Part shown: piece by piece, positions 50,793 through 63,967 of the stretch
Layout: each line of letters opens with the position of its first letter
Position numbering within the stretch: the stretch's first letter is position 1
Source: Paramacrobiotus metropolitanus
Lineage: Eukaryota > Tardigrada > Eutardigrada > Parachela > Macrobiotidae
Length of the DNA: 64,000 nucleotides
Reading direction: 5' to 3'
Assembly (NCBI RefSeq): GCF_019649055.1
Contig: NW_026570409.1
Location: 1 to 64,000, forward strand
Translations under genes and position numbers: made by a program
Notes under the pieces: generated by a model
Told to the model about the DNA's origin: nothing
Seen by the model: only the letters and a program-made list of their open reading frames with translations
Database searches by the model: none

Positions 50793-50798
50793 TATATC
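50793..50798. repeat. Polinton target-site duplication, left
   Basis: tatatc directly precedes the left terminal repeat and is repeated exactly at 63962-63967 after the right one. Six bases is the usual Polinton duplication. Confidence 0.9.
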
Positions 50799-50933
50799 AG
50801 TAGTAATGCGATACTGTATAAGTAGATATGACTCATCAATTATTTAAAAATGGCGGCGCTTACGTCATAAACTGGAGTTGGGAGCTACACCTTCCAGCTG
50901 TAATTTCCGGTTGGACTTTATAACTATAGTTCC
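50799..50933. repeat. Polinton left terminal inverted repeat
   Basis: About 135 bases, starting agtagtaatgcgatactgta and ending ctatagttcc, match the reverse complement of 63827-63961 with scattered differences. The outermost base differs (a on the left, g on the complement of the right end). Confidence 0.9.
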
Positions 50934-51311
50934 TAGATCTACTTTATGAATCAGTAAGTTTGTACACTGCATATACTTTACAACTGTAGATACAGTGCAA
51001 TTTACATGGAACGTATGGGTCTGCGCCTTTATTCATACCTCTTTAATTAGAGTTACGCTGCGATGTTTAATGCAACTTTTCTATTGAGGTAACTATTAAA
51101 GAAACAATGTTCAAAGAAAACAAACACAATACCCAAACATAGTCTTGCTAAGATGGCTCGCATTGTGTGCAAAAAGAACTTCTGTGAGGCAGCAATAGGC
51201 TCCTGCATTGTCATGATGCTGATTCTAATAATATTGCTGGAAGCATTTTTTGGAATTAGCCATAATATTAAAACTATTATTAACAACTGTACGGTACTGG
51301 AAATTGAAGGC

Positions 51312-54300
51312 CTATTCTCCGGAAACATCACCCCAGGGACGAGTATGAAATTCGGTGTCGACAATTCGACGTTTTGAGTAGGTAAGTCTGAAGCGCTTAT
51401 TCATTTCCGTAGACAGAACCTCCAACTTGCGCTTATTTCGCGTGATGTTGAACGGATAATTAACCATAATATCGTTTGGTTCATCTGGCGGTGCAAGGCT
51501 TTCCAGTAGCAATTCCTTCAAACTTTCCAGATTCAGCTGTTTTCTGGCCTGCCGCGTTAACGTAAATCCCTTCACTTTTCTTGTTTCGTGACCAGTGTTG
51601 GTACGATAAGCGTAGCTTTTAGGCCCTATAAAGAAAAGTAATACACACGTATAGTACTCAGGAATAATTAATTATTGGTAGTTAATGGTGTACCAAGCGC
51701 CACAAATTCTTCTATGTGCTCGTTAGGTTCCAGCGATGATGACAAGTCGCCAAGACAAGTTCCCGTTGGTGGGTCAGGCAGTTCGTTTTTGTGAACATAG
51801 AAAATGCTATCTGCGAACCAAAACCCTATGAATAAAGAAGGCAAAAACAAAATCACTATTATTACTGCATACCGGTATCATGATATAGTAGGCGGTCCCC
51901 AACCATCTCCATAAATTTGAGGAGATGCAATCGTGCATAAGCAGTAGTGAAAGCCGCAATGACAACATTGGTTTTCTTATTCGTTACTATATAATCCTTC
52001 TTCAAACGGTATTGTACGGCCATGACTTCATCCGTAACCAAGTCGAATCCAGCAACTTCGTAATTATTTGAAAATAAAAGTCATGAAAGACCTCTTTCTT
52101 CTCCACCATTGCCGTGTTGAACGGTCTTCCTGCTGCCCAAACTTTCCCCAAAAAAAAAACAATTCATCCATAGTTAATTAATTAAGTCGGGTTTGGCAGC
52201 TTCACGATTCTTACCAAAACTACTATTCAACATAGAGCTTGCAAAGCGCTCTGAGCATCATTTTAGCAATATTATCTTTATCCAGCTGAATATTTTCTTT
52301 AACAAGGAATTCTTTAACATAAAGTCTTTCTCCTCGTTTGTGTGACAGTTTGAAGGATAGCCAGACGCTTCAGTTTTCAACTTCAAAAACAAGTCAATGT
52401 ACTCCCTGAATAGATATTGCATTTGCTCGGGTAGTGCCACGCAGAATAAATTTTATCGATGCGGTAGGCAACTTCTAACGCTCGATGAATTTCCGGTGTA
52501 CACCACGTTCCTTCCAGAGCCCTATCGTCATCCTCATGATCACAGGGAGAGTTAACACGCTCTTTCACGCACCTCGCGCATAACGGGAATGTTAGCTTAT
52601 CCGTTCGGTAGGGCAGCACTGGAAGGAATAAAGACGGTGGTGGAATAATGCGACATTTTACCACTGCAAATATTTCTTCCACTGGTGGAAAGTCGTTAAT
52701 AATAACAACCGACGGTCCAACGGGGTAGGGCAAATTTTTGTTGATGTATGGATATTCGCTAATAACGTCAAGTGAATAAATTTTCTCCCCTGGTCCGCAT
52801 TTATGGTAAAGCTTTATTGCATTTGTTCGACCACCAGTAAAGGCATCCCGCGGATGCAACGGCTCCATTACGTTGGCGAGCTCAGTTAGCTTTCGAAACT
52901 CAAAGTCAGATGCTAATTTCATGTCGTAATCGTGCTCCCAAATCGATACAATCGTGTATCCCAGAGTTTTTATTGCATCAAAGCGCAAAAAAGTCGCTTT
53001 CTGAACCTCTTCCATTGGTTTACCAAGAAACGGGTGCATTGTGCTTTTCGTGGTACAGTCGCTGCAGCCGTGCCACATACATCCTAGAGACAGAAATATT
53101 TTGTCGGTAAATGTCAAAGAATTAAACGTATTATCCTGTGACAGACCTAAAAATTCGTAAACTGTTTTGGTTTCTGAATGGAAGCCATCAACGGTCCAGT
53201 GCCCGATTCGAAATTCTCTTTCCAGTTTTGTATCGTTATCCAGTTCTATCGATCGTAGCCACCGTTCTGCTTTTACAGATGATTTCTTTCCCTGTCCTGG
53301 TGGACCGATTAAAGCAATTTGGCTCTTCTTCAGCATTCGCGCTCCCCAAAAATAATTGCACATTCCAGGGGTTGTAAGGCCAGAAGCAAATGGACATAAT
53401 CCACCAGATGCTTGTTGGAAAAGAATTCGAAATTTTTCACATGCTTGTTGTAGTACGAGAACGTCCTGGGAACAGTACCTGTGAAACAGTTGCATATAGC
53501 GAGTGTATTATTAATAAGAAAAGCTCGGACATACTTGATGAAATGTGCATTAAAATCAAACTGATTGTGATGACGACGTCGTTCCTTGCGAAACCATTTT
53601 ATGAAACGTTTCCGCTCACATCTTTTCATGGATTGGTAACCGTAGTCATGCCGATCTGGCCAAGGGATGATCTTGTTCCAATTTTCGGGTTTATTCAGCT
53701 TGTGTGGAAAATCTCCTTTAGTTTCTTTACAAACCAAACGCCTTCGCGAAATTCCTTAGTGACGATGGCACGTAGTTCATGGAATCTCGAAATTTTATTT
53801 TGAGTTTACTGAAATCCATTTGCATAATTTTACTACCATTAAAAAATCAGTGGGTGTGGAATAACACCATTTTTTTACTAAAGAGTTTAACAGGAAAAAC
53901 CCGTCGAACCCTGAAATACAAACCACATCAATCAGTTATGAATGAGCTGCTGCTGCTGTTGATTTCGATATTTTTTACCTTTAAATTATGCGCAATAAAA
54001 GTGTATCCCCGAAAACGTTCGCTGAAAATGAAATCCCCAAGAGCATTTGCGATGTCGCCATTAATGTTTCCATCCTAAGGGAGCACAAACTTCTCATCTT
54101 TCGTGGCGATGACTGCTAGATTCACTCGGAATTCACCTGTGTCATCTTGGTAGGTTTCGAGGTCGAAGTATGCAAATTTTTCGTTTAGATGTTTCGCTTT
54201 CTCGTTATCCGTAAGTTCGATGGGCTGCATATAGCAGACATGGCTTTCTTCCGGCATGTGAAAGAGTGAACAGATTGCGCAGTACACTTCACCACAACGA

Positions 54301-55625
54301 TGTTGCTGATCGTCAATATCCAGTTCGATTTCCGGTTCGTCTTCGTCGTCATCGCAGTTGTCAGCATCTCTTCTGTTATCTCGAGGTGCGTCGTAATTTG
54401 TCCGCATTCGACGTTTTACAAGAGAAACGAAAAATTTGCATATTTCACATACAAAAAACTTTGAACAGATGGGACTGGTTCCAGACTTGTGCGTTTCAAA
54501 ACACTCCTGGCCATAAAAGTCGCGATTACATTCCGAACAAGGTATTTTTGAATCTTTTTGCATCTTGCACGCTGCAGACAGACATTGGTGACATTTAAAC
54601 TCACACCGGTGGTCTTCTCGATGATTGTAGCCTTTCATGTAACGGTAACAGTAGTAGTGATGCTCGAAGTAAGCCGGCAAAGATGTCACAACATCAAAAT
54701 GCCGGTCATGATGGAGCAGCATAATCCGCTTCTCAGCATAAGCGCCACAGTAGACAACTGAGTTTCCGTGATCGACAGATACTACAATAATCTGATAATT
54801 TGGCAGAACTTCTTCAAACCGAGGAACGTCTTCCAGGCTGTATTCTCTATTTGGCAACCGGGCAGCCCGCAGCAATTCTCTGGTTTTTTCATCCTGCAGT
54901 TTCTTGGTTCGGTAGAGCTTTGTATAAAATTCTTTATCGCCATCCGCATGCGCTTTAGCGACCACAATTGCTCTAGCCATACATAAACTGTCCGAGTTTC
55001 GAATCTGGGTGATGCACCGTTTTTTGTCCAAAATTTGCCGCAACAACTGGGAGACGTTCTTTCTCCATGAGCCAAATGGTGTATCTGTATGCTGCACTGA
55101 CAGTTCAAAAGACTCGTCCAATAAAAACGCTTGATTTGAATTCAAAATTCTTTTGATTGTCGTCATCCATCGCTTGATAGTCAACTGATCGCGTTGAATA
55201 GGTGGCATCCAAATAGGGTACTGCAGTGCCGCCTGGTATATGCGAATTCTCACCAAGTTGTGCGCAGGTATTTTGGAAATCACCGTTTCAAGGATATCTT
55301 TCAACAACAGAGTTATGGTCTTTACTGCGTACTTGAACGATAAATTTTCAAGGCCGTTTATCTGACACTTATAAGTCTCAAATAAAACTGAAAACTTTTG
55401 CGAATATTTGGCTCCGGTTTTTTCCAACTCATAATGTTCTTTAATATCATACAAATCTGGATCAAGCTCTCCTAAACGCTGCGCAGGTACACCAGCCGGA
55501 GCTGCAGAATAATTATGATCAAGAAGCGCGTAGTTATGATTAAAGAGAGCACTATCTGCAAATTCAGTTTCCGCATCGGTCTCAAGGGCAGTTGACGGTA
55601 TTGACGGATCAGGAATTTGTGTCAT
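51312..55625 (-). pseudogene. Polinton protein-primed DNA polymerase B, intron-bearing and degraded
   Basis: The first block (54078-55625, start MTQIPDPSIP) has an OTU-like segment (NSDSLCMARAIVV), Cys/His-rich zinc sites (CHQCLSAACK, IPCSECNRDFYGQECFETH) and exonuclease motif I (YFDLETYQDD). An in-frame TAG lies at 54075-54077, then exonuclease motif II (FIAHNLK). Later blocks hold YCSQDVLVLQQ, GCMWHGCSDC, motif A (SLDVISEYPYINKNLPYPVG), motif C and the C-terminal KGFTLTRQARKQLNLESL. Short GT-AG introns lie at 53911-53978, 53479-53534, 51811-51872 and 51626-51693; the third splits an Asp codon of motif C. Several one-base frame breaks occur (around 53740, 53850, 53880, 52430, 52320 and 52210), most at homopolymers. 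The copy would not make a full enzyme as sequenced. Confidence 0.9.
51811..51872 (-). other. Spliceosomal intron inside polymerase motif C
   Basis: On the minus strand the donor gtatgc follows the YHDT codons and the acceptor ttcgcag precedes SIFYV. The intron lies within the Asp codon between them. Reading through it instead would remove catalytic residues and shift meaning, so splicing is required. Confidence 0.75.
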
Positions 55626-55930
55626 GGTGTAGAAAAACAACCTGATGGAAGTACTTTGCTATTCGCAGAAATCCAGCCTCATATAAGCAGCTTATTTATA
55701 TGTGTAAGCAAAATTCCGTACAGCATTTTATAGTTACATCGGCCAACAAAATTTAATGACTCATTCGATGAAACGTGCTGGATGCGATAATATTCGCAAC
55801 ACGTTTTTATTAGGCGCAATCAGCGTTCGAGGAGGAAACACAGCGCCACAGCGGATGCAACATCTATTTTCTTGGTCATCTGCAATAATATAGACCACCT
55901 CGAAATCTTTGTAAAATAGCGAGATATATA

Positions 55931-56416
55931 TTAACGCATACCCCAGTAAGAATTCTGATCTGGTCTTTTGCTGCGGCAGTGTCGTTGCAGTCGATGGGTA
56001 GCTCTTTCTTCAGGAATCGGCATTCGGCAAAGCAGGCATTTCGTACGGCTTTTTAAATAGTAGTCCAGCATCCAATTAGAGTACGATTGCGCTTTGTTAG
56101 GACTGTAGCACTTGTCGTTACTTAGAGCAGCAAAACGCGGACAGCCAAGTGTATCAAGATTAATGACATCAGATTTGAGCAGTTGTTGAAGAATGAGACA
56201 CTTTTGTCCCCCTTTTGCATAGAAAACGACAACGGCAGGATCATCAACATAGCGGAGATAATTTTTAAACGCTCGATTTAACTGATGTTCTAACTCTGAG
56301 AAAGCTTTATCGAACACAGCATCATTATCCGAAGAACAAATGCCAAATTTATTAACAATGTAATTGTTTGGCGCTAGCGCAAAAGTGGTATAATAAAGGC
56401 AATAAAAATTCGACAG
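55931..56416 (-). CDS. Exonuclease-like Polinton protein with C-terminal zinc finger, possibly truncated
   Basis: The frame is open from just after a TAA near 56417 to 55931. It has no in-frame ATG near its front (a GTG lies at 56315-56317), so the N-terminus may be lost or on an unseen exon. VVFYAKGGQKCLILQQLL, VINLDTLGCPRFAAL and SYSNWMLDYYLK align with FFAKGLEKLKILENYL, FNLEDIGCPKFKEL and TFANWLN of the gene at 61646-62104. The C-terminus adds CLLCRMP...THRLQRHC, a likely zinc-binding finger that the relative lacks. The fold may be a DEDD-like nuclease (weak inference). It lies between the polymerase and protease genes on the same strand. Confidence 0.55.
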   Translation of the reverse strand: MSNFYCLYYTTFALAPNNYIVNKFGICSSDNDAVFDKAFSELEHQLNRAFKNYLRYVDDPAVVVFYAKGGQKCLILQQLLKSDVINLDTLGCPRFAALSNDKCYSPNKAQSYSNWMLDYYLKSRTKCLLCRMPIPEERATHRLQRHCRSKRPDQNSYWGMR

Positions 56417-56721
56417 AACTTATTGCAAGTGACGTAATAATTGGCTTCCCATGAAGCGTATACCACTTAATGTCTACAACAATATGGTAAACCATTCTTT
56501 GAACAAAACAGAATCAGAAATCGGTAGTTTCCGCTGCGTAATGAGATGAAAAAACTGTTATATTTGTAAGTTACGCACTGACAAAATATTTTATATATAT
56601 AGCATCAAAACGGATGCAGCGCAACGTCACGCTGTGGTGGCAAAATACTTTGGTGCACAGCAAATTATTTTTTACTTCTATACAAACAGTACGTGAAAAA
56701 ACTGGCGTTGGTGACGTGACT

Positions 56722-57241
56722 TTATTGCATTAACTGGCGGAAAACAGACTGTGTAAGCATAGAGTTATCACGGACTACAGTTTTCAAACTGAAATAATAA
56801 TTAACATAAGCACAAACCATTCGATCATTCGAAGATTTGCTACTGGTAAATAAATGAATAAGAGAAGTAAACGACTCGCCGGAGCATCGTTTTAAAATAA
56901 AAAAGCAGCAGTACTGTCCACACGGTACTCCATTCCATTTGTAAACGATGCGCTTGCGAAATAACTCTGCCATCGTTCTTGCAAAAATTTTCAATGTGGC
57001 GGCCGTAGTAATATGGTTCATGTCCGTAGGAGTCAAAATATTCCAATTGTCCTGGTACAGCCTGGTAGAACGCCAGCCAATGCGAGCCAGGTTTTGCAGC
57101 TTCGTCAGTATTGACAACACATGCCCATGGCAGTTTGGCTGGAAGCGAAGATGGTAACATGTTCGCAGCAAATACACCAATGAAAGCGTCTCGTGTCACC
57201 GCGCTTGAACGTAATACATGGCTGATTTCAGCGGTGTCCAT
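56722..57241 (-). pseudogene. Polinton adenovirus-type cysteine protease, frameshifted
   Basis: Starts at ATG 57241 (MDTAEISHVLRSSAVTRDAF). The first frame has IGVFAANMLP, the catalytic His region GSHWLAFY and the acidic residue in YFDSYG, then LQMEWST. The catalytic Cys block (PCGQYCCFFILKRCSGES) is in a different frame, so an indel of one or two bases lies at about 56921-56926, immediately before the Cys. Downstream residues run to 56722. In intact elements this family matures capsid proteins. The break inactivates it as read. Confidence 0.8.
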
Positions 57242-57665
57242 TGTAGTGCCAGTCTGTATACAACAACAGCAACGTTAAAAATATTCTTTTTTGATTTTGT
57301 CCTGTAAGGTACGGGCGACCGAGAGCGCGAAGCGCTCCGGTCGCCCATTATACTACATCCGTCACGATTCACTTGAGCGTCGTCAGAGGCCGACAGCGCC
57401 CACCCCGCTTGCGCCCCTGAAGCGTACCGCTCAAAGCAACAACACTTTTGTGCAAAATCTTACACACTCACTTACGTTGTGCTTTTTATGCAGTAAAATC
57501 CGCAATCAACTGGCGATGTGAATTAACTTCAATGATATTATCCCACACCACCATTTTGTGCACACGTTCTTCTGTCCGCACAAAATCCGCGAGAGTGGCT
57601 GGAACGGAAAGAAATCCGAATCAACCTGCATAGCTGGTACGCTTCCTTCCAGAATAAAAGCCATT

Positions 57666-58034
57666 TTAAAATGCGTCCTCAAATTCTCTCGGGGGAATCC
57701 GTTTAAGCCGTTTCAATCGTATGGAATGTCTCTTGATCTTCTTCGTTTTCTTGTGCTGCTGCTTGAGCCGCTTGATGCCTCCTTGCTGTTGAGTTTGCGA
57801 TGTGAGTGCTTCCGAAATTTTTTCTCCTACTTTCCTGGACGTCTCATTAAGAACTGTTGTCGCTGCGTCGCGTAGGTGAAACCTTGCTGCTTCCATAGCT
57901 GCTCTAGCATGTGGCGCGGCAGCTTTAATAACCGGAGCCGCAAAATGCGCTAATTTACTGAGCATTGCGCGCAGAAAATTGGGCAGCATAAAACCACTCC
58001 CATTTTGCATTAAACTTCTGCGATACCGTGTCAT
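57666..58034 (-). CDS. Small basic Polinton protein, minor-capsid/core-like
   Basis: 122 residues from ATG 58034. The same frame is open upstream (ending SQHGYGAV before this Met) but has no earlier ATG, so the true start may lie in an upstream exon. An amphipathic Ala-rich segment (HFAAPVIKAAAPHARAAMEA) is followed by a Lys/Arg-rich tail (KRLKQQHKKTKKIKRHSIRL). This layout resembles adenovirus pVI/pX-style proteins and the small Gly-Tyr-start proteins found next to the protease in other Polintons. Assignment is by position and composition. Confidence 0.5.
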   Translation of the reverse strand: MTRYRRSLMQNGSGFMLPNFLRAMLSKLAHFAAPVIKAAAPHARAAMEAARFHLRDAATTVLNETSRKVGEKISEALTSQTQQQGGIKRLKQQHKKTKKIKRHSIRLKRLKRIPPREFEDAF

Positions 58035-58136
58035 GACGGCTCCATACCCGTGCTGACTACCGGCACCCGTGGCGGTCCCGGCAAATAAATCCAGATAGAA
58101 CGATGGTGACGGTTAAAAGAGGATAACGGGCATTTT

Positions 58137-59066
58137 TTAGCGATAGTAATACTGAATGGGCCGAAAGTGCAGCTTTACCATTGATTTTCCAATCTGAAAA
58201 ATTGCCGGTTCTCCCAGATCAGTTGCAATGTTGATGTCGATTGTGTCCAGCCGATCGTATAAAACAGGTAGATAATGTGGATCCTCGAACCTTTCCGAAA
58301 CAATTTCGAAGCGCGGAACACTTGCTTTAATGGGGAAAGCGCGCAAAAGTTGCATAGTTTCATCACCCACAATATTGTAGTCACACTTGTTGCAGTACAC
58401 AAAAATTGATTGGTTCCCAATGTGCATGTTCACAGGTTTATCCGCCGTCATTAGTACAGAAGTTTCCAAGAGCTGCAGCTCTGCCAATGCCTTTAACTGG
58501 TCGGACAGCGTGGTACTTGCGGAAGCAAAATTCGTTTTTTCCATCAAAAAATTTTCATACTGTTCGGAATGTGCTGCAGAAAATCGTCGTTCTTTGAATC
58601 CCAGTATACGGGATAGATGCAAAGATGAAGGAGGAAAATCCAGAAAAACCCGCACGCTAGGAAACTTTACTTTGAGCTTGGGTTCAGTTTTTAATAATTC
58701 GAATTGGAAAGCCTGTTTTTCCACTGCAGAATCGCCGAACGGCTTTAACCGCGGCACTTTACCGTTGATAAAATCAATGATATCACTTTTCTCATAGATT
58801 CCTGCAGGTACTGTAATTGTGTCGCGATCCATTACGAAAACACCGTTGCTATCCATGGATGTAATTTGGTTTACGTGCAATGTTTGGGGGCTGGGTAAAT
58901 TGTACATTGAATTAGGATACTGTATTTCCACCAATGCCATTTCCCATTGTCCCGGTAGTGATAAAACACTCTTTAGCTTTGTTGTCCATTCAGCTGCATT
59001 ATTCTTTGGAAACTGCTGCATACAGGCATCAGATGGAAGCGTGACATAGAAGCTGTTATGAGTCAT
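58137..59066 (-). CDS. Conserved Polinton protein, probable virion component
   Basis: 309 residues, starting MTHNSFYVTLPSDACMQQFP. The N-terminal pattern (FYVTLPS...FP.N..AEWTTKL...L.G.WEMALVEIQYPNSMYN) is a well-known signature of a Polinton-linked family, usually about this long and adjacent to capsid and protease genes. A beta-rich composition fits a jelly-roll or fibre-like virion protein, but I cannot assign it as the penton. The frame is undamaged. Its start overlaps the end of the integrase gene by 11 bases, suggesting one transcription unit. Confidence 0.7.
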   Translation of the reverse strand: MTHNSFYVTLPSDACMQQFPKNNAAEWTTKLKSVLSLPGQWEMALVEIQYPNSMYNLPSPQTLHVNQITSMDSNGVFVMDRDTITVPAGIYEKSDIIDFINGKVPRLKPFGDSAVEKQAFQFELLKTEPKLKVKFPSVRVFLDFPPSSLHLSRILGFKERRFSAAHSEQYENFLMEKTNFASASTTLSDQLKALAELQLLETSVLMTADKPVNMHIGNQSIFVYCNKCDYNIVGDETMQLLRAFPIKASVPRFEIVSERFEDPHYLPVLYDRLDTIDINIATDLGEPAIFQIGKSMVKLHFRPIQYYYR

Positions 59067-60027
59067 TTCTCACACGACTGAGTTCGGCTTCGTAATATTT
59101 TCCGCGAATTAAGTCCCCGTCTTCATCCACTAATACATAAAGCGGCTCTGGTTGTTGTGGTAGCACTTGATGTATTTTGTAAATTTCCTCCTTAAATGTT
59201 GACTCGTATCCTTTTTCAGAAAGTGTTTTGTCGATGGCTACTCGTACTGTGTCACCCACGCCGTACTTTGGTTTTTTCTGTTTTCCCATTAATAATTCTG
59301 CATATAATTGATTGAATATTTGCAGAGAATTAGACTGGCTAACATCATTGGGGGTGACTTTATGCGAAGAATGGATTGCGTTGTTGTAACTCTTAACCAA
59401 ATCACTCAAAACGTCCCAGTACACTTTAGACTGTCGGTGTCGAAATAATTGCCATATACGTTTCTTTAGATTACGTATGCCATTCTCAGCTAAGGATGCT
59501 TTGATTGCTTTATTTTCAGACGAGAACAGGAAAACCTTTTGGGCCGTCAAAAAATTCTTAACATCCTTATTGTAAAATTCAAGACCTTTGTTGCTTTGCA
59601 ATTTAATAGGTACGCCAAGTTCTGCAAAGACCTTTTCCAAACCAAGTTTAACTTCGGTACCGCTTTTATTCTTTAGTAGTTGACAGCTTACTTTCTTGCT
59701 GAAGACGTCGATCACAAACAGTATCCAACGGTACCCCTTGTTCTGTTTCGCATATTTTGACATGTCTGCCAGATCGGCTTGATATTGCTCCGCTAGGTTT
59801 GAGACAACTACGGGGTTTCTTTTGAACTTTTTTCGTCGAGATTTGTGGACTGTATATGGATCCAGATGTTCTAGCTGCTCCTGCGTCTGTTGGTAGCTTG
59901 TTGCTGGTAGATAGTGGTTGCGAAACTTTTGAATCCCCGTAAAGCTGCCCGGGTGTTGGGGGTTCAGATACGCTTGTCGCAACAGTAGATTGGCCATCGT
60001 CTTCGTCGTTGCTGCTGCTTGATCCAT
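59056..60027 (-). CDS. Polinton retrovirus-like integrase, active-site Asn substitution
   Basis: 323 residues from ATG 60027. YLNPQHPGSFTG is the typical N-terminal Polinton integrase motif. The catalytic core has the first Asp in YQADLADMSKYA, then YRWILFVIDVFSKK; the second catalytic position reads LQSNKGLEFYN with Asn (codon aac) where DDE integrases have Asp; the Glu is in KASLAENGIRNLKKR. A chromodomain/SH3-like tail follows (KYGVGDTVRVAI, YVLVDEDGDLIRGKYY). A single G-to-A change explains the Asn. The enzyme would normally insert the element; this version is likely inactive. Confidence 0.9.
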   Translation of the reverse strand: MDQAAATTKTMANLLLRQAYLNPQHPGSFTGIQKFRNHYLPATSYQQTQEQLEHLDPYTVHKSRRKKFKRNPVVVSNLAEQYQADLADMSKYAKQNKGYRWILFVIDVFSKKVSCQLLKNKSGTEVKLGLEKVFAELGVPIKLQSNKGLEFYNKDVKNFLTAQKVFLFSSENKAIKASLAENGIRNLKKRIWQLFRHRQSKVYWDVLSDLVKSYNNAIHSSHKVTPNDVSQSNSLQIFNQLYAELLMGKQKKPKYGVGDTVRVAIDKTLSEKGYESTFKEEIYKIHQVLPQQPEPLYVLVDEDGDLIRGKYYEAELSRVRNDS

Positions 60028-60093
60028 CGCAACAGCTAGATGTGCAATTCAAGTCATACCTTCTCCCAAAGACAAAGAGAACACATCCACCAC

Positions 60094-60591
60094 TCATTTG
60101 TTATTGACAGTCATCCAGTTGAACTGGGATTTAGTTCTTGAGCCGATGGGACCTTCGACTTGTAAAGTTTTTTCATCAAATACTTCTCGCTTTGCACGTT
60201 TGCGTTTCGCCGGCGGGGCAGGTGGAATAGGAGGGAAAGCATCTAACATACGATCAGGCATATTAGGGGGTACCCATGGCTTCTTTAATAGTTGTACTGG
60301 AATCGGTGGCACAGATGCTGGTGGTGGAATAACCATTTGGTCAGGACCGAACGCCGATTCCTTCAGCGCCAAAAAACGAGCCGAATTTCTTGATAACAAT
60401 TCTGCCTTTTCCCACACGCTCAGGGCATTCCTTGAAATGATTTCTTTCACCAAGTCATCAAGTCTTACAATATCTACAGCTTCAGTAGGCTGCTGTTGTA
60501 ATTGAACATCCGTTGCAATGCGACCAGCCGTGTCGCTGGCAAGTTTCTTCGTTTCGCTCACCGGGATAATATAATGCACTTCTGGTTTCAT
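60094..60591 (-). CDS. Conserved Polinton protein with Pro-rich segment
   Basis: 165 residues from ATG 60591 (MKPEVHYIIPVSETKKLASD). The start overlaps the stop of the preceding gene by ATGA, which sets it. The first part has helical LDDLVKEIISRNALSVWEKA and FLALKESAFG, similar to a small Polinton family starting M-x-x-x-(Y/F)-(I/L)-(I/V)-P. A Pro-rich stretch (VIPPPASVPPIPVQLLKKPW, PPNMP, PPIPPAPP) and a nuclear-localisation-like KRKRAKR follow. It may be structural or DNA-binding; function unknown. Confidence 0.6.
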   Translation of the reverse strand: MKPEVHYIIPVSETKKLASDTAGRIATDVQLQQQPTEAVDIVRLDDLVKEIISRNALSVWEKAELLSRNSARFLALKESAFGPDQMVIPPPASVPPIPVQLLKKPWVPPNMPDRMLDAFPPIPPAPPAKRKRAKREVFDEKTLQVEGPIGSRTKSQFNWMTVNNK

Positions 60592-60917
60592 TCTAGTAAA
60601 GCAGTTCCCAAAACAGCTGCCAATACAGGTAGAACCGCAGGTAAGAATCCTCCGCGCTGTAATAATATTTCCCTCTTGCTTCGTAAAGGATATTTTTTGA
60701 GGGCAATCAGCTTTAATGGTCGACTCCAACGTTGACACACCTTAAGCTGATCGGCGGTCAGAGGCACTGAATTCTTCACCAAATTTAAACAAATTTCTTC
60801 AAAGCAGCGAAGTTGTCGTTTCGAAATATTTTCCAAAAGAAAACGACGCTGCCTGGGTTTCAGCGATCGCAGGGTAAGGAGAAACGGAGCAAAGTCTTTT
60901 AAAATCTGATCACACAT
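60588..60917 (-). CDS. Small conserved Polinton protein (GGFLP family)
   Basis: 109 residues from ATG 60917. Features: LKPRQRRFLLENISKRQLRC, CLNLVKNSVPLTADQLK, then KREILLQRGGFLPAVLPVLA ending in a short hydrophobic tail. This pattern (basic, Cys-containing N-terminal half, then LQ-x-GGFLP and a hydrophobic end) recurs in Polinton-type elements next to the ATPase. Function unknown; perhaps a membrane or capsid-associated peptide. It is linked by ATGA overlap to the next gene. Confidence 0.65.
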   Translation of the reverse strand: MCDQILKDFAPFLLTLRSLKPRQRRFLLENISKRQLRCFEEICLNLVKNSVPLTADQLKVCQRWSRPLKLIALKKYPLRSKREILLQRGGFLPAVLPVLAAVLGTALLE

Positions 60918-60924
60918 TCTTGGG

Positions 60925-61605
60925 CTAGTTTGTCGTTTGTGGATCGATGTAAATTTTTGTCAACTCTCCCGGTAATATTGCTGAACGAATCCTTAAATAG
61001 GCAGGGGTGTCCGGTTTCATATCCAAAATGAGAAGTTGAAATGGTTCCTGACCGATTTCCTCGTAAGCTCCGCTAAGATGTTTTAAACCAGTCTGCCTTT
61101 CGAGAATCTTGATTTGGTTCACATCACGATTATTTTTGAACAGGATAAGATATTGCGCATTAAGATGAACGTCTCGCATAGCAGACCCTTGTTTATATAG
61201 GTTATTGAATAATAGAAATACACAAAGCCGTTTATGGTGTACTTTTTGAGTGAAAAGTTTAGATAAATGCTCATTCTTTGCCAAACCGCTTGCCACGTCA
61301 TCCATTATCAACAAAATATTTTGTTTACCATCAAAATAATTTTCATCCTCCACAATTTGCTGAATATTTTTTGTCAGTTCAATCCCAGGGATTTTTCGCT
61401 GAAGCATTTCGTATGCTGGCTGCATTTCTCCGTACACCAAAATAATTCGTCCAAATGGTTGGTCAAATAATTTATCGCGCTCCATAATTAATTTTGACAC
61501 ATACGTGGTTTTCCCCGAAGTCGTTGGCCCCACAACAAGAACTGAAGCAGGCAATCGGAATCTCAAATCAGCTGTCGTGCGCGGATACCTATTAAAGGAC
61601 TCCAT
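60925..61605 (-). CDS. Polinton A32-type DNA-packaging ATPase
   Basis: 226 residues from ATG 61605 (MESFNRYPRTTADLRF). Walker A is VVGPTTSGKTTYV (about residues 24-36), Walker B is ILLIMDDVASGL (about 96-107), followed by the sensor-like FLLFNNLYKQGSAMRD. These match the FtsK/HerA-clade ATPases that pump DNA into capsids in Polintons and nucleocytoplasmic large DNA viruses. It is the first gene of the leftward array, only 40 bases from the divergent gene at 61646. No damage is seen. Confidence 0.9.
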   Translation of the reverse strand: MESFNRYPRTTADLRFRLPASVLVVGPTTSGKTTYVSKLIMERDKLFDQPFGRIILVYGEMQPAYEMLQRKIPGIELTKNIQQIVEDENYFDGKQNILLIMDDVASGLAKNEHLSKLFTQKVHHKRLCVFLLFNNLYKQGSAMRDVHLNAQYLILFKNNRDVNQIKILERQTGLKHLSGAYEEIGQEPFQLLILDMKPDTPAYLRIRSAILPGELTKIYIDPQTTN

Positions 61606-61645
61606 TTCCAAAGGGAGGAGTTATTACTAGCGTACCGGCAGCAGA

Positions 61646-62104
61646 ATGGAGAATTCAAAGCGGAGGGTTGTCTTGGATATTGATTGGTTTATCGCTGGCT
61701 CCCAACGGCTTATAAAACAGCTGGCATTTTGTGATTGCCAAACCAGTGTTAGCAGGTGCTACACATTCACCATTCCATCCCACTTTAATCATTACCGCGT
61801 TGAATTTAGGAGCCAATCGCGCCACTCGCACGGACTTGTCTGGCATAATCGTGGAGATTATTTATACTTAGACATTGCTAGTGCCATTCAGGATATGCTA
61901 GAGCTTATTGGTGAACGACCTGCGCGTCTAACGTTTTTTGCCAAAGGATTAGAAAAGCTAAAGATTTTGGAAAATTATTTGCCTGAAGTGTTTAATCTTG
62001 AAGACATTGGGTGCCCGAAGTTTAAGGAGCTTACTTCATTACCACAAACAACGCTTGCGAAAGCGGAGACGTTTGCAAATTGGCTGAATGGCGAAGATAA
62101 CTAA
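61646..62104 (+). CDS. Exonuclease-like conserved Polinton protein
   Basis: 152 residues from ATG 61646 (MENSKRRVVLDIDWFIAGSQ). RVVLDIDWF, IKQLAFCD, HSHGLVWHNRGDYLYLDIA, FFAKGLEKLKILENYL and DIGCPKFKEL form a pattern seen in uncharacterised Polinton-linked proteins that resemble DEDD/RNase H-fold nucleases (D-x-D near the start, as in exonuclease motif I). Nuclease activity is inference. A partial relative lies at 55931-56416. It overlaps the next gene by 17 bases, so the two are probably expressed together. Confidence 0.65.
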   Translation: MENSKRRVVLDIDWFIAGSQRLIKQLAFCDCQTSVSRCYTFTIPSHFNHYRVEFRSQSRHSHGLVWHNRGDYLYLDIASAIQDMLELIGERPARLTFFAKGLEKLKILENYLPEVFNLEDIGCPKFKELTSLPQTTLAKAETFANWLNGEDN

Positions 62105-62627
62105 CGTTATTGCAACTGCTGACCTTGGCTGCGCAATTGACTTACCCAGCTTATACGAGCGCGCTCCGCTTTCTCATTATGCACCACATAAATATTCCGG
62201 GCTTCTTCTCCGTTCCATTCGTCCGCAGAAATCGCACTGCCAGGTGTACCGCAACGGCAAGATCACAGTTAATGGTGCAAAGTCCATCAATGATGCTCTC
62301 GCGTTATTGCATCATTATTGCCGGAAACTGCAAAAATATGGCTATCAAAAAGCATCGGTAAAGAATCCACGAATTGTTAACATTGTCGCCACTTTTAATT
62401 TTGGGAAATTTCTTAGTTTACAAAAATTATACAACTCAATAAGAGCAAAAGTCGATGCCATGTTTGAACCTGAATTATTCCCGGCCATGCGAGTCCGGCT
62501 TCAAGGTTGTACGGCGATGATTTTCCATTCTGGAAAAATTAATTTATTAGGTGCAAAAGATGCTGATACTCTTCAAACTGCTGAAAACGAATTGCGATTG
62601 TTATTAGAAAATGTACTACAGCAATAA
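62088..62627 (+). CDS. TATA-binding protein (TBP)-like protein encoded by the Polinton
   Basis: 179 residues from ATG 62088. Two direct repeats match the TBP saddle. Repeat 1: TNVIATADLGCAIDLPSLYE, YAPHKYSGLLLRSIRP, YRNGKITVNGAKSINDA, LQKYGYQ. Repeat 2: IVNIVATFNFGKFLSLQKLY, FEPELFPAMRVRLQG, MIFHSGKINLLGAKDAD. In TBP four Phe intercalate into the TATA box. Here repeat 2 keeps both (ELFP, MIFHSGK) and repeat 1 has Tyr at both positions (HKYSG, QVYRNGK). The Asn of each repeat that contacts minor-groove DNA is kept (TNVIAT, IVNIVA). Nearly the whole protein is the core fold, with no N-terminal extension. It likely redirects host transcription machinery to element promoters; that role is inference. 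Confidence 0.9.
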   Translation: MAKITNVIATADLGCAIDLPSLYERAPLSHYAPHKYSGLLLRSIRPQKSHCQVYRNGKITVNGAKSINDALALLHHYCRKLQKYGYQKASVKNPRIVNIVATFNFGKFLSLQKLYNSIRAKVDAMFEPELFPAMRVRLQGCTAMIFHSGKINLLGAKDADTLQTAENELRLLLENVLQQ

Positions 62628-63826
62628 ATAAAATTACCAAAAAGTGATCGTTGCAGATTTCTGTTGCGTGGCATTAGTAAACAGTAGTTGTTAATTTAGT
62701 AATAAACGTAAAAACGTTTACCCTTTAAAGTATGTGATACATACTACATATACAGTGCAGTACAGTACAGTACATTGCTCATTAATTAAACTAATTACAA
62801 TTCAGTACGAAATGTATTTTTGGTTATAAAAGCATTGAGTGAACATACGAGCATATAGTAATAAATACTCCGATGTAGAAAACTGCAAAATCAGCAAATT
62901 GCACAGACCGTTGACAAGGTGGAAAAAGTCTTTGAGAAGTTCAGGCCAACTTTTTCCACCCGCGCCCCCGTTGCTTGTAGCATCCCCGAAACTATTTGCA
63001 CATAAAAAATATAGCATGTGTTACAACGCAATATGAAATAAAAAACATTTGCTTCACTTACTTCGTGTGCAAGAAATCCATCAATTCTGCAATTAGTGGA
63101 GTATTTGTTAATAGAAATGCGACATTAGCTCTAGTGGAAAAAAATTTGCGGCGACCCTGGCGGACTTTTTTCAGTTGATCTGCACGCACGCAAAAGCATG
63201 TACGCAAATAACTGTAAAACTTGATTACACAGTACAGTCATAATGTATAGTAGTAAAGAAAATAGTATTCTATCGTACCTGTTAGTTTTCATTTATATAT
63301 GTATAAATAAGTTGCGAATAGAGCAAATAGTTATATCCACTGAAAAGTAATTATATGTCACTTACTATACGTTAAAAGGCTTTAGCGAGCTAGACGCAGT
63401 GATGTGCAAGTCCTTCCATGATGTAGAAGTATGTAAACAACTGGTCGAATAGAGCATTAAAACTGTATAATGCACTGTGTAATCATAAAGTGCATTGCGC
63501 ACATGTACAGTCCAGATTTATATGCCAGGCAGTGTGCACTCCCGATAATCAATTAATACTCATGGTAATGTAGAAGATAATTATGTGTAACATAAATGCA
63601 GGATAACTAGTAACTACTACGGTGATAAACAATTAAGCAGCAAAGACGCGTATGCTGTGCAGCAACATTGCTGACGAGCCATTTGAGCTTATGTGTTGGT
63701 GCCGCTCCACGCGGGAAAAGAATGTAAACAATGTGTGTTTGAATGTACTGTATATGTGTAATATACTGCGTACCATCTTATACAGTATACATGTACACTG
63801 TTGAAATGACTCGTATGCTGGAGTTG
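62628..63826. other. Non-coding right arm of the Polinton
   Basis: No coding frame is supported. The stretch holds short AT-rich repeats, for example cagtacagtacagtacagtacat at 62757-62777. It is the only gene-free stretch over 1 kb in the element. Confidence 0.6.
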
Positions 63827-63961
63827 GGAACTATAGTAATAAAGTCCAACAGGGAATTACAGCTGGAAGGTATAGCTCCCAACTCCAATTTATTACGTAA
63901 GTGCCGCCATTTTTAAATAATTGATGAGTCATATCTACTTATACAGTATCGCATTACTACC
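63827..63961. repeat. Polinton right terminal inverted repeat with internal hairpin
   Basis: Reverse complement of the left repeat. Within and beside it, tggagttgggaactatag (63819-63836) and tatagctcccaactcca (63873-63889) are inverted, so this end can form a hairpin that the left end has largely lost. Confidence 0.88.
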
Positions 63962-63967
63962 TATATC
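63962..63967. repeat. Polinton target-site duplication, right
   Basis: tatatc, identical to 50793-50798. Confidence 0.9.

Follow-up and report, generated by a model that had tools for sequence, protein, structure and literature searches.

Structure of the element in the window

The window, by which we mean the whole stretch of 64,000 nucleotides analyzed here, contains a 13.2-kb Polinton spanning positions 50799-63961, with inverted repeats at its ends and the 6-bp target-site duplication TATATC on both sides. A comparison of the first 160 positions of the two ends found 139/160 alike. The following features were identified (the evidence is given in brackets):

50793..50798, no strand: target-site duplication TATATC, left copy (sequence)
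50799..50953, + strand: left terminal inverted repeat (end comparison)
52383..55640, - strand: DNA polymerase B region, split between three or more frames: 52383-53495, 53330-53737 and 54075-55640 (ORFs, Pfam)
55931..56317, - strand: ORF128, similar to ORF152 (ORF, sequence comparison)
56722..57241, - strand: adenovirus-type protease in two frames (Peptidase_C5, E = 0.0037, below the cut-off; above it in the sibling element L025)
57492..57554, - strand: 21-aa match to the putative major capsid gene of sibling L025 (sequence match)
57666..58034, - strand: ORF122 (ORF)
58137..59066, - strand: ORF309, conserved in sibling elements, no Pfam match (ORF, sequence comparison)
59056..60027, - strand: retroviral-type integrase (rve, E = 4.1e-6, below the cut-off; above it in sibling L025)
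60094..60738, - strand: ORF214 (ORF)
60588..60917, - strand: ORF109, with an adenovirus protein X-like stretch (Adeno_PX, E = 2.4e-4, below the cut-off)
60925..61611, - strand: packaging ATPase of the A32 type (Pox_A32, E = 0.0011, below the cut-off)
60991..60999, - strand: TATT box TATTTAAGG, inside the 3' end of the ATPase gene, 82 nt upstream of the ORF109 start (motif scan)
61590..61598, + strand: TATT box TATTAAAGG, inside the ATPase gene, 56 nt upstream of the ORF152 start (motif scan)
61646..62104, + strand: ORF152, a conserved companion that overlaps the TBP start (ORF, sequence comparison)
62088..62627, + strand: Polinton TATA-binding protein (TBP), 179 aa (ORF, Pfam, PDB comparison, family profile)
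63807..63961, - strand: right terminal inverted repeat (end comparison)
63962..63967, no strand: target-site duplication TATATC, right copy (sequence)

Besides its inverted repeats and 6-bp duplication, the element presents the integrase, polymerase B, protease and ATPase expected of a Polinton; the integrase, protease and ATPase matches lie below the Pfam cut-offs in the window copy, and those of the integrase and protease lie above them in L025. The polymerase match (DNA_pol_B_2, E = 9.9e-12) comes from 52386-53495, and Pfam gave no polymerase match of its own for the piece at 54078-55640. The window copy is decaying: its putative capsid gene is down to the 21-aa match, and its polymerase and protease are split between frames. 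The capsid candidate, a 333-aa protein that we presume to be the capsid protein, was found in full or in part at 13 loci (the query's own included) and matched nothing in Pfam and nothing of weight in the PDB. The preliminary description of this DNA spoke of intact Polinton ends, which holds for the terminal repeats and the duplication but not for the copy as a whole. It also placed the TBP gene at a divergent start beside the ATPase. The arrangement is indeed divergent, but the direct neighbor of the ATPase is the 152-aa ORF, which overlaps the start of the TBP gene by 17 nt.

Identity of the TBP gene

The gene is a single open frame without N-terminal extension. Its product matches the Pfam TBP family (PF00352) in two stretches with E = 3.4e-35 and 120.2 bits (cut-off: 22.9), in line with the earlier reading of a two-repeat TBP core over the whole length of the 179 residues. 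When the single sequence was compared with the PDB, each of the 35 distinct sequences listed was a TBP or a TBP fusion (best E = 3.3e-19), and a profile of 29 family sequences also gave 35 PDB sequences (best E = 3.3e-41). The profile match that had been proposed as a check of this identity is therefore strong.

Alignment to yeast TBP, whose numbering is used throughout, agrees with the residues first described: the paired minor-groove Asn are kept (N69 and N159), Phe is found at F190 and F207, and Tyr replaces Phe at F99 and F116. The protein thus lacks the full set of four intercalating Phe, which is a trait of most cellular TBPs and not of the TBP fold. Among 29 window-type rows, F99Y was found in the window protein only (1/29); it is also present in two near copies outside this residue table (L040 and L003).

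Distribution of TBP genes across Polintons

We searched the genome (169.8 Mb, 533 contigs) with the window TBP and the window ATPase, which gave at least 150 matches (295 candidates, 150 scored) and at least 151 matches (404 candidates, 150 scored), respectively. Merging 147 of the 150 TBP rows (three overlapping second rows were removed), 53 further places and 150 ATPase rows yielded at least 199 distinct TBP places and at least 146 distinct ATPase places. Among the matches listed, a TBP lies within 12 kb of 123 of the 146 ATPase places, and an ATPase was located near 127 of the 199 TBPs, leaving 72 TBPs without a listed ATPase and 23 ATPases without a TBP within that distance. In 200 rounds of random placement, the number of ATPase places with a TBP was 3.9 on average and 11 at most. 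Three gene orders predominate among the matches listed: TBP on the same strand 6-9 kb downstream of the ATPase (n = 46), TBP divergent from the ATPase within 2.5 kb (n = 38) and TBP on the same strand up to 2.5 kb upstream of the ATPase (n = 37); other orders are rare (n = 6). These counts indicate that TBP belongs to the normal gene set of many Polintons in this genome and is not the stray cargo of one copy. Absence of the gene from other copies, which had been named as grounds for abandoning the proposal, is refuted by the same figures.

At three loci (L032, L033 and L035), the ATPase and TBP genes stand head to head, and their predicted start codons overlap within the letters CATG. This overlap leaves no intergenic space for a promoter, so that each leader would fall inside the other gene.

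Phylogeny and selection

The residue table and the tree draw on 28 of the 44 locus TBPs, after removal of 16 sequences that were near copies or partial; L001-L008 were not included, and one gene entered twice, as L018 and L030. The tree, built from 45 rows, places all element TBPs on one side of a branch that separates them from the human, yeast, host and Sulfolobus TBPs (support 97/92). Two subgroups were recovered, the window type, referred to as AB (97/93), and class C, which is joined by P0010 (99/95). The positions of L052, P0010, P0011 and P0012 are unsure, since these present long branches or joins in the tree. One of them, L052 (G000:C66:348500-350300), is a very divergent TBP-like gene with a 234-aa open frame; no Polinton gene was matched in the 1.8 kb read around it, and it is possibly a TBP-related factor of the host.

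The tree bears on the simplest alternative, namely that the gene is a captured host TBP gene or pseudogene that has no function in the element. The same genome does contain a cellular TBP, located on another contig (C4) and of ordinary animal type, with human TBP as its closest PDB chains. This host TBP groups with human and yeast TBP, however, and the element TBPs fall outside the cellular group, come in three main gene orders and occupy more than 100 places adjacent to an ATPase. In addition, dN/dS ranged from 0.04 to 0.31, well below 1, across 11 valid pairs with measurable dS (0.25-0.31 for close copies of the window gene and 0.04-0.29 in seven other pairs; five pairs with L002 or L006 and two pairs with saturated dS are excluded), which indicates that element TBPs are under purifying selection. 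We consider a functionless captured gene very improbable, and the tree, the copy number and dN/dS reject its specific form, a recent host TBP pseudogene, which the preliminary description had listed as a possible refutation.

The DNA-contact face

We compared DNA-contact residues across 29 AB rows (20 from genome loci, the window protein and 8 environmental sequences, representing 28 distinct genes); the residue-to-base contacts on this face are those we take to apply. Six substitutions are found in 29/29 rows: T112H, A113C, L114Q, F116Y, V122T and T124N. Five others are nearly as constant: S118N and V213N (28/29 each), T215L (27/29), L205V (25/29) and V203T (23/29). N159, F190 and F207 are kept in 29/29 rows, F99 in 28/29 and N69 in all 27 rows that cover it. 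Four cellular TBPs are identical to one another at these positions except at A113 (three Ala, one Ser), with N69 covered in two of them. The eight rows of class C share C113, Q114, T203 and L215 (8/8), and Phe116 is kept in 7/8. Judged from this alignment, the DNA-contact face of the element TBPs is rebuilt in a fixed way.

The preliminary description had proposed that Phe-to-Tyr changes in repeat 1 might have altered DNA preference. The altered face stands, but the emphasis shifts: a changed DNA specificity is suggested more by the mostly polar changes in both repeats than by the two Tyr. A yeast TBP mutant with altered specificity reportedly carries I194F, V203T and L205V, which resembles the Thr203 and Val205 observed here; our argument does not rely on this likeness.

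Residues facing other transcription factors were also compared. N91, E93 and R107, which we assume to be TFIIA-side contacts, are lost in 29/29, 23/29 and 29/29 AB rows, respectively. E186, presumably a further contact of TFIIB, is kept in 10/29 AB rows and in 8/8 class C rows. E188, a TFIIB contact (PMC12529657), is kept in 26/29 AB rows.

A protein profile search returned 616 proteins, 120 of which were listed; among these, 111 were new and comprised 32 with the strict AB signature, 40 with C113/Q114 alone, 11 of cellular type and 28 others. The sole named animal protein with AB-like residues among the matches listed was RvY_00361 of the tardigrade Ramazzottius varieornatus, which keeps most AB residues but lacks Q114, Y116 and T122. 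IMG/VR viral contigs yielded no confirmed relatives when queried with the window protein, the family, the ATPase and three other TBP alignments. Phage records returned haloarchaeal virus TBPs only, at 29-32% identity and including a match in HRTV-9.

Candidate promoter boxes

Without assuming any motif beforehand, we surveyed the 8-mers of 12 AB stretches that contain an ATPase. The motif TATTTAAG was present on the ATPase strand in 12/12, and the only 8-mer to equal it was the overlapping ATTTAAGG. This TATT box occurs, mostly on one strand, in 12 of 13 window-type stretches once L038 is added, a stretch without ATPase in which TATTTAAG was not found (L033, L037 and L040 are omitted from both sets as relatives). 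The 12 stretches contain 30 sense and 6 antisense copies, relative to a sense mean of 3.4 and a maximum of 11 over 100 dinucleotide shuffles; on both strands, 36 copies were seen vs 5.9 expected. No enrichment was observed in window positions 1-50000 (1 seen vs 2.4 expected) or in class C elements (1 vs 1.8). Three of the antisense sites (L021, L022 and L023) lie ~200-600 nt upstream of the ATPase and face away from it. Another 8-mer, TGACCTTT, was also frequent in the 12 AB stretches (30 seen vs 6.1 expected), but it was dropped as an element box because it is also enriched in window positions 1-50000 (6 vs 1.0 expected) and is thus not element-specific.

In the window itself, TATTTAAG is located within the ATPase gene and ahead of the gene that follows, and the related box TATTAAAGG also falls within the ATPase gene. 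A shared motif had been proposed for the 40-bp divergent region and before other element genes; such a motif exists, namely TATTTAAG, but neither box is located in the 40-bp gap.

Constraints on codons or RNA alone might produce the TATTTAAG signal, with TBP reading some other site. Relative to synonymous shuffling, for which L038 was included, coding stretches contain 17 sense copies vs 3.9 (0/300 shuffles as high) and 2 antisense copies vs 1.3. Consistent with codon constraint, 12 of these 17 sites fall in the ATPase, most of them at one position with a conserved Tyr-Leu-Arg. When the ATPase was removed, 5 copies remained vs 1.5 (3/300 as high), and the ATPase alone gave 13 vs 2.4 (0/2000 as high). 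The broader pattern TATT[AT]AA[AG] was in excess on the sense strand (39 vs 20.1; 0/300) and on the antisense strand (15 vs 8.6; 4/300). Moreover, TATTTAAG is also found outside annotated coding sequence, upstream of the ATPase (L022, L023 and L024) and of the integrase (L031 and L034), and the strand bias persists when the 12 stretches are pooled, both of which speak against codon constraint alone. These results suggest that TATTTAAG is kept beyond synonymous codon choice, and we regard codon or RNA constraint alone as an unlikely source of the signal.

We then counted boxes within 250 nt upstream of genes in 94 AB gene regions, which often overlap the preceding gene. TATTWAAR was found in 28 regions in sense and in 3 on the other strand; TATA-type boxes were found in 1 and 2, respectively, so that window-type elements show no enrichment of canonical TATA boxes. 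By gene, the sense box precedes ORF109 in 9/12 regions, ORF309 in 6/11, the ATPase in 5/12, the integrase in 4/12, ORF122 in 2/7, ORF87 in 1/3 and ORF152 in 1/8 (a box at ORF152 of L030 is excluded from the count). It was not found within 250 nt upstream of ORF214 (0/1), the putative capsid gene (0/6), the protease (0/7) or TBP (0/15); the 15 AB TBP genes have no TATA-type box upstream either.

The case is weaker for the second TBP clade, class C, which appears to go with a different word, TATTAAGG. Across three non-redundant class C elements, TATTAAGG was seen 7 times vs 0.9 expected, always in sense (7/7), and precedes genes in 3/20 regions (ORF309 2/2, integrase 1/3, ATPase 0/6). It was not significant in the codon test (40/300), whereas ATTAAGG was weakly significant (4/300). 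The split of TATTTAAG and TATTAAGG between the TBP clades gave P = 3e-5 (Fisher test), with the sites in related elements not being independent. The TBP genes of class C present a TATA-type box in 5/6 cases, located 46-47 nt from the start codon in L026, L027 and L029.

The box counts and the residues together also speak to a role directed at the host, in which the TBP would compete for TFIIB or promoters and dampen host transcription while the element genes use the host TBP at TATT boxes serving as weak TATA boxes. The boxes are indeed TATA-like, and the loss of presumed N-lobe contacts (N91 and R107, each kept in 0/29 rows), together with the retained E188, would suit a protein that evades host regulators. 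Such a decoy would nevertheless leave unexplained both the fixed, remodelled DNA-reading face and the recurrence of a TATT box in the very elements where canonical TATA boxes are not enriched. We consider it unlikely.

Companion genes

In the window and in L023, L024 and L025, ORF152 comes before TBP and the ends of the two genes overlap. At L041:699-1598 (+ strand), ORF152 and TBP are fused into one open frame of 407 aa. Relatives of ORF152 present a common D-x-D-W-F motif. Neither ORF152 nor ORF128 gave a convincing family match, ORF152 being without a Pfam or PDB match of weight.

A second companion was found in elements whose TBP lies far downstream of the ATPase. In L025, a protein with a PC4-like domain is encoded between the protease and ORF152 on the other strand:

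L025:6397-7440, - strand: PC4-like domain protein (Pfam PC4, PDB PC4)
L011-L017, L021-L024, L038 and L041: matches to the PC4-like protein (sequence match)

Of six proteins scanned with an E limit of 1, five matched the Pfam PC4 family (best E = 6.6e-9), and the PDB comparison returned three PC4 sequences (E from 3e-4 to 5e-4). Relatives were found at 14 fetched loci, a count that includes the query's own locus and one place held twice. The window contains no PC4-like protein. PC4 is, by its family name, a transcription coactivator.

This companion has to be weighed against a role outside transcription, in which the TBP would bend DNA for replication at the terminal repeats, for integration or for packaging. 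TBPs bend DNA strongly and Polinton-type elements probably initiate replication at their termini, both of which fit such a role. However, most of the boxes are located upstream of genes on the coding strand, and some lineages carry a PC4-like coactivator together with the TBP. We consider a role outside transcription quite unlikely.

Finally, no TFIIB-like gene was found with the elements. The genome-wide search with PF00382 gave 6 matches on 3 contigs, none of them in the TBP or ATPase lists; a very divergent TFIIB could escape this search.

Proposed function

Our preferred reading is that the element TBP is a core-promoter recognition factor specific to the Polinton and acting on the Polinton's own genes, to which we give a probability of about 0.6. 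The idea of a promoter-recognition factor had been put forward from the window alone and gains support here, with the function being inferred from sequence. In the mechanism that we envisage, the element TBP would bind the TATT box better than the host TBP does, and its remaining Phe and Tyr residues would bend the box. It would then recruit host RNA polymerase II through host TFIIB, a route suggested by the mostly kept Glu188 and by the lack of a TFIIB gene among the genes found with the elements. It would work without TFIIA, most of whose presumed contact residues are gone. In class C, the TBP genes usually have a canonical TATA box of their own, so that the host TBP could act first: it would switch on the TBP gene, whose product would then open the TATT genes.

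A stronger version of this reading proposes an orthogonal core-promoter system in this animal group's Polintons, in which the element TBP, joined in some lineages by the PC4-like coactivator, reads a TATT box that the host TBP ignores, and in which TBP and box have diverged together (the TATTTAAG and TATTAAGG clades). On either reading, the system would be a small counterpart (on the stronger one, a one-protein counterpart) of the late pre-initiation complex of beta- and gamma-herpesviruses, presumably of independent origin. We hold the stronger version to be plausible, at slightly less than even odds. Two observations argue against the preferred reading itself: no box was found at the putative capsid (0/6) or protease (0/7) genes, which a late switch should serve, and E186 is lost in most AB rows, whereas viral TBPs with a changed Glu are argued to be unlikely to use host TFIIB (PMC7221094). 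Furthermore, the host TBP may itself read TATTTAAG as a weak TATA box.

Comparison with known systems

Transcription in archaea and eukaryotes centers on TBP. Human and yeast TBP do not differ in the DNA-reading residues that we compared, and the TBP of an archaeon departs from them at one position. Like cellular TBPs, the Polinton TBP presents the two-repeat core over its whole length, the paired Asn, Phe190 and Phe207. It differs from them by HCQ, Tyr116, Thr122 and Asn124 in repeat 1, by mostly Thr203, Val205, Asn213 and Leu215 in repeat 2, and by the loss of most residues that we take to lie on the TFIIA side. The element shares with Polintons/Mavericks and adintoviruses the inverted repeats, the 6-bp target-site duplication, the integrase, polymerase B, protease and ATPase. 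Polintons are often considered as candidate ancestors of eukaryotic DNA viruses. We found no report of a TBP gene in Polintons in the open literature, to which the search was confined, in agreement with the earlier remark that none was known to be described as Polinton cargo.

TBP genes are known from other dsDNA virus genomes, namely those of giant viruses, as the preliminary description mentioned, of mirusviruses and of haloarchaeal viruses (PMC7221094, PMC10132985), and they are reported sporadically from mirusvirus-like elements of a green alga. According to PMC7221094, almost all viral TBP-like sequences are accompanied by a TFIIB-like protein, whereas none was found with these Polintons. 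The residue signature of the element TBPs is not mentioned in the available portions of PMC7221094 and PMC10132985.

There is also a likeness to the beta- and gamma-herpesviruses, whose late promoters often contain TATT boxes that are bound by viral TBP-like proteins and poorly by cellular TBP (PMC4893493, PMC6541308, PMC12529657). KSHV ORF24, EBV BcRF1 and CMV UL87 likewise represent TBP-like proteins of virus-type genomes with a polar, Asn-rich DNA face, and the KSHV mimic needs the extra Asn residues of this face (PMC12529657). The herpesvirus TATTWAA has the same core as the Polinton TATT box, and both TATTTAAGG and TATTAAAGG appear in a KSHV target table (PMC6541308). In the Polintons, boxes of this type (TATTTAAG, TATTWAAR) were found upstream of genes, but not at the capsid and protease genes. 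EBV BcRF1 is reported to bind TATA and TATT alike in vitro (PMC4893493), which suggests that a TBP alone may not provide the specificity. The herpesvirus mimics, as described there, are divergent and act within a six-protein complex, whereas the Polinton TBP is stand-alone, recognizable by sequence and mostly keeps E188. The likeness to the herpesvirus late pre-initiation complex is one of mechanism and not of membership, and no homology is claimed.

These Polintons present a large and diverse TBP family with rewritten DNA-reading residues beside candidate target boxes, which makes a change of TBP specificity testable. Our results suggest that Polintons can bring along some of the machinery for their own transcription, and they may represent a second, independent case of the herpesvirus-type TATT-box strategy.
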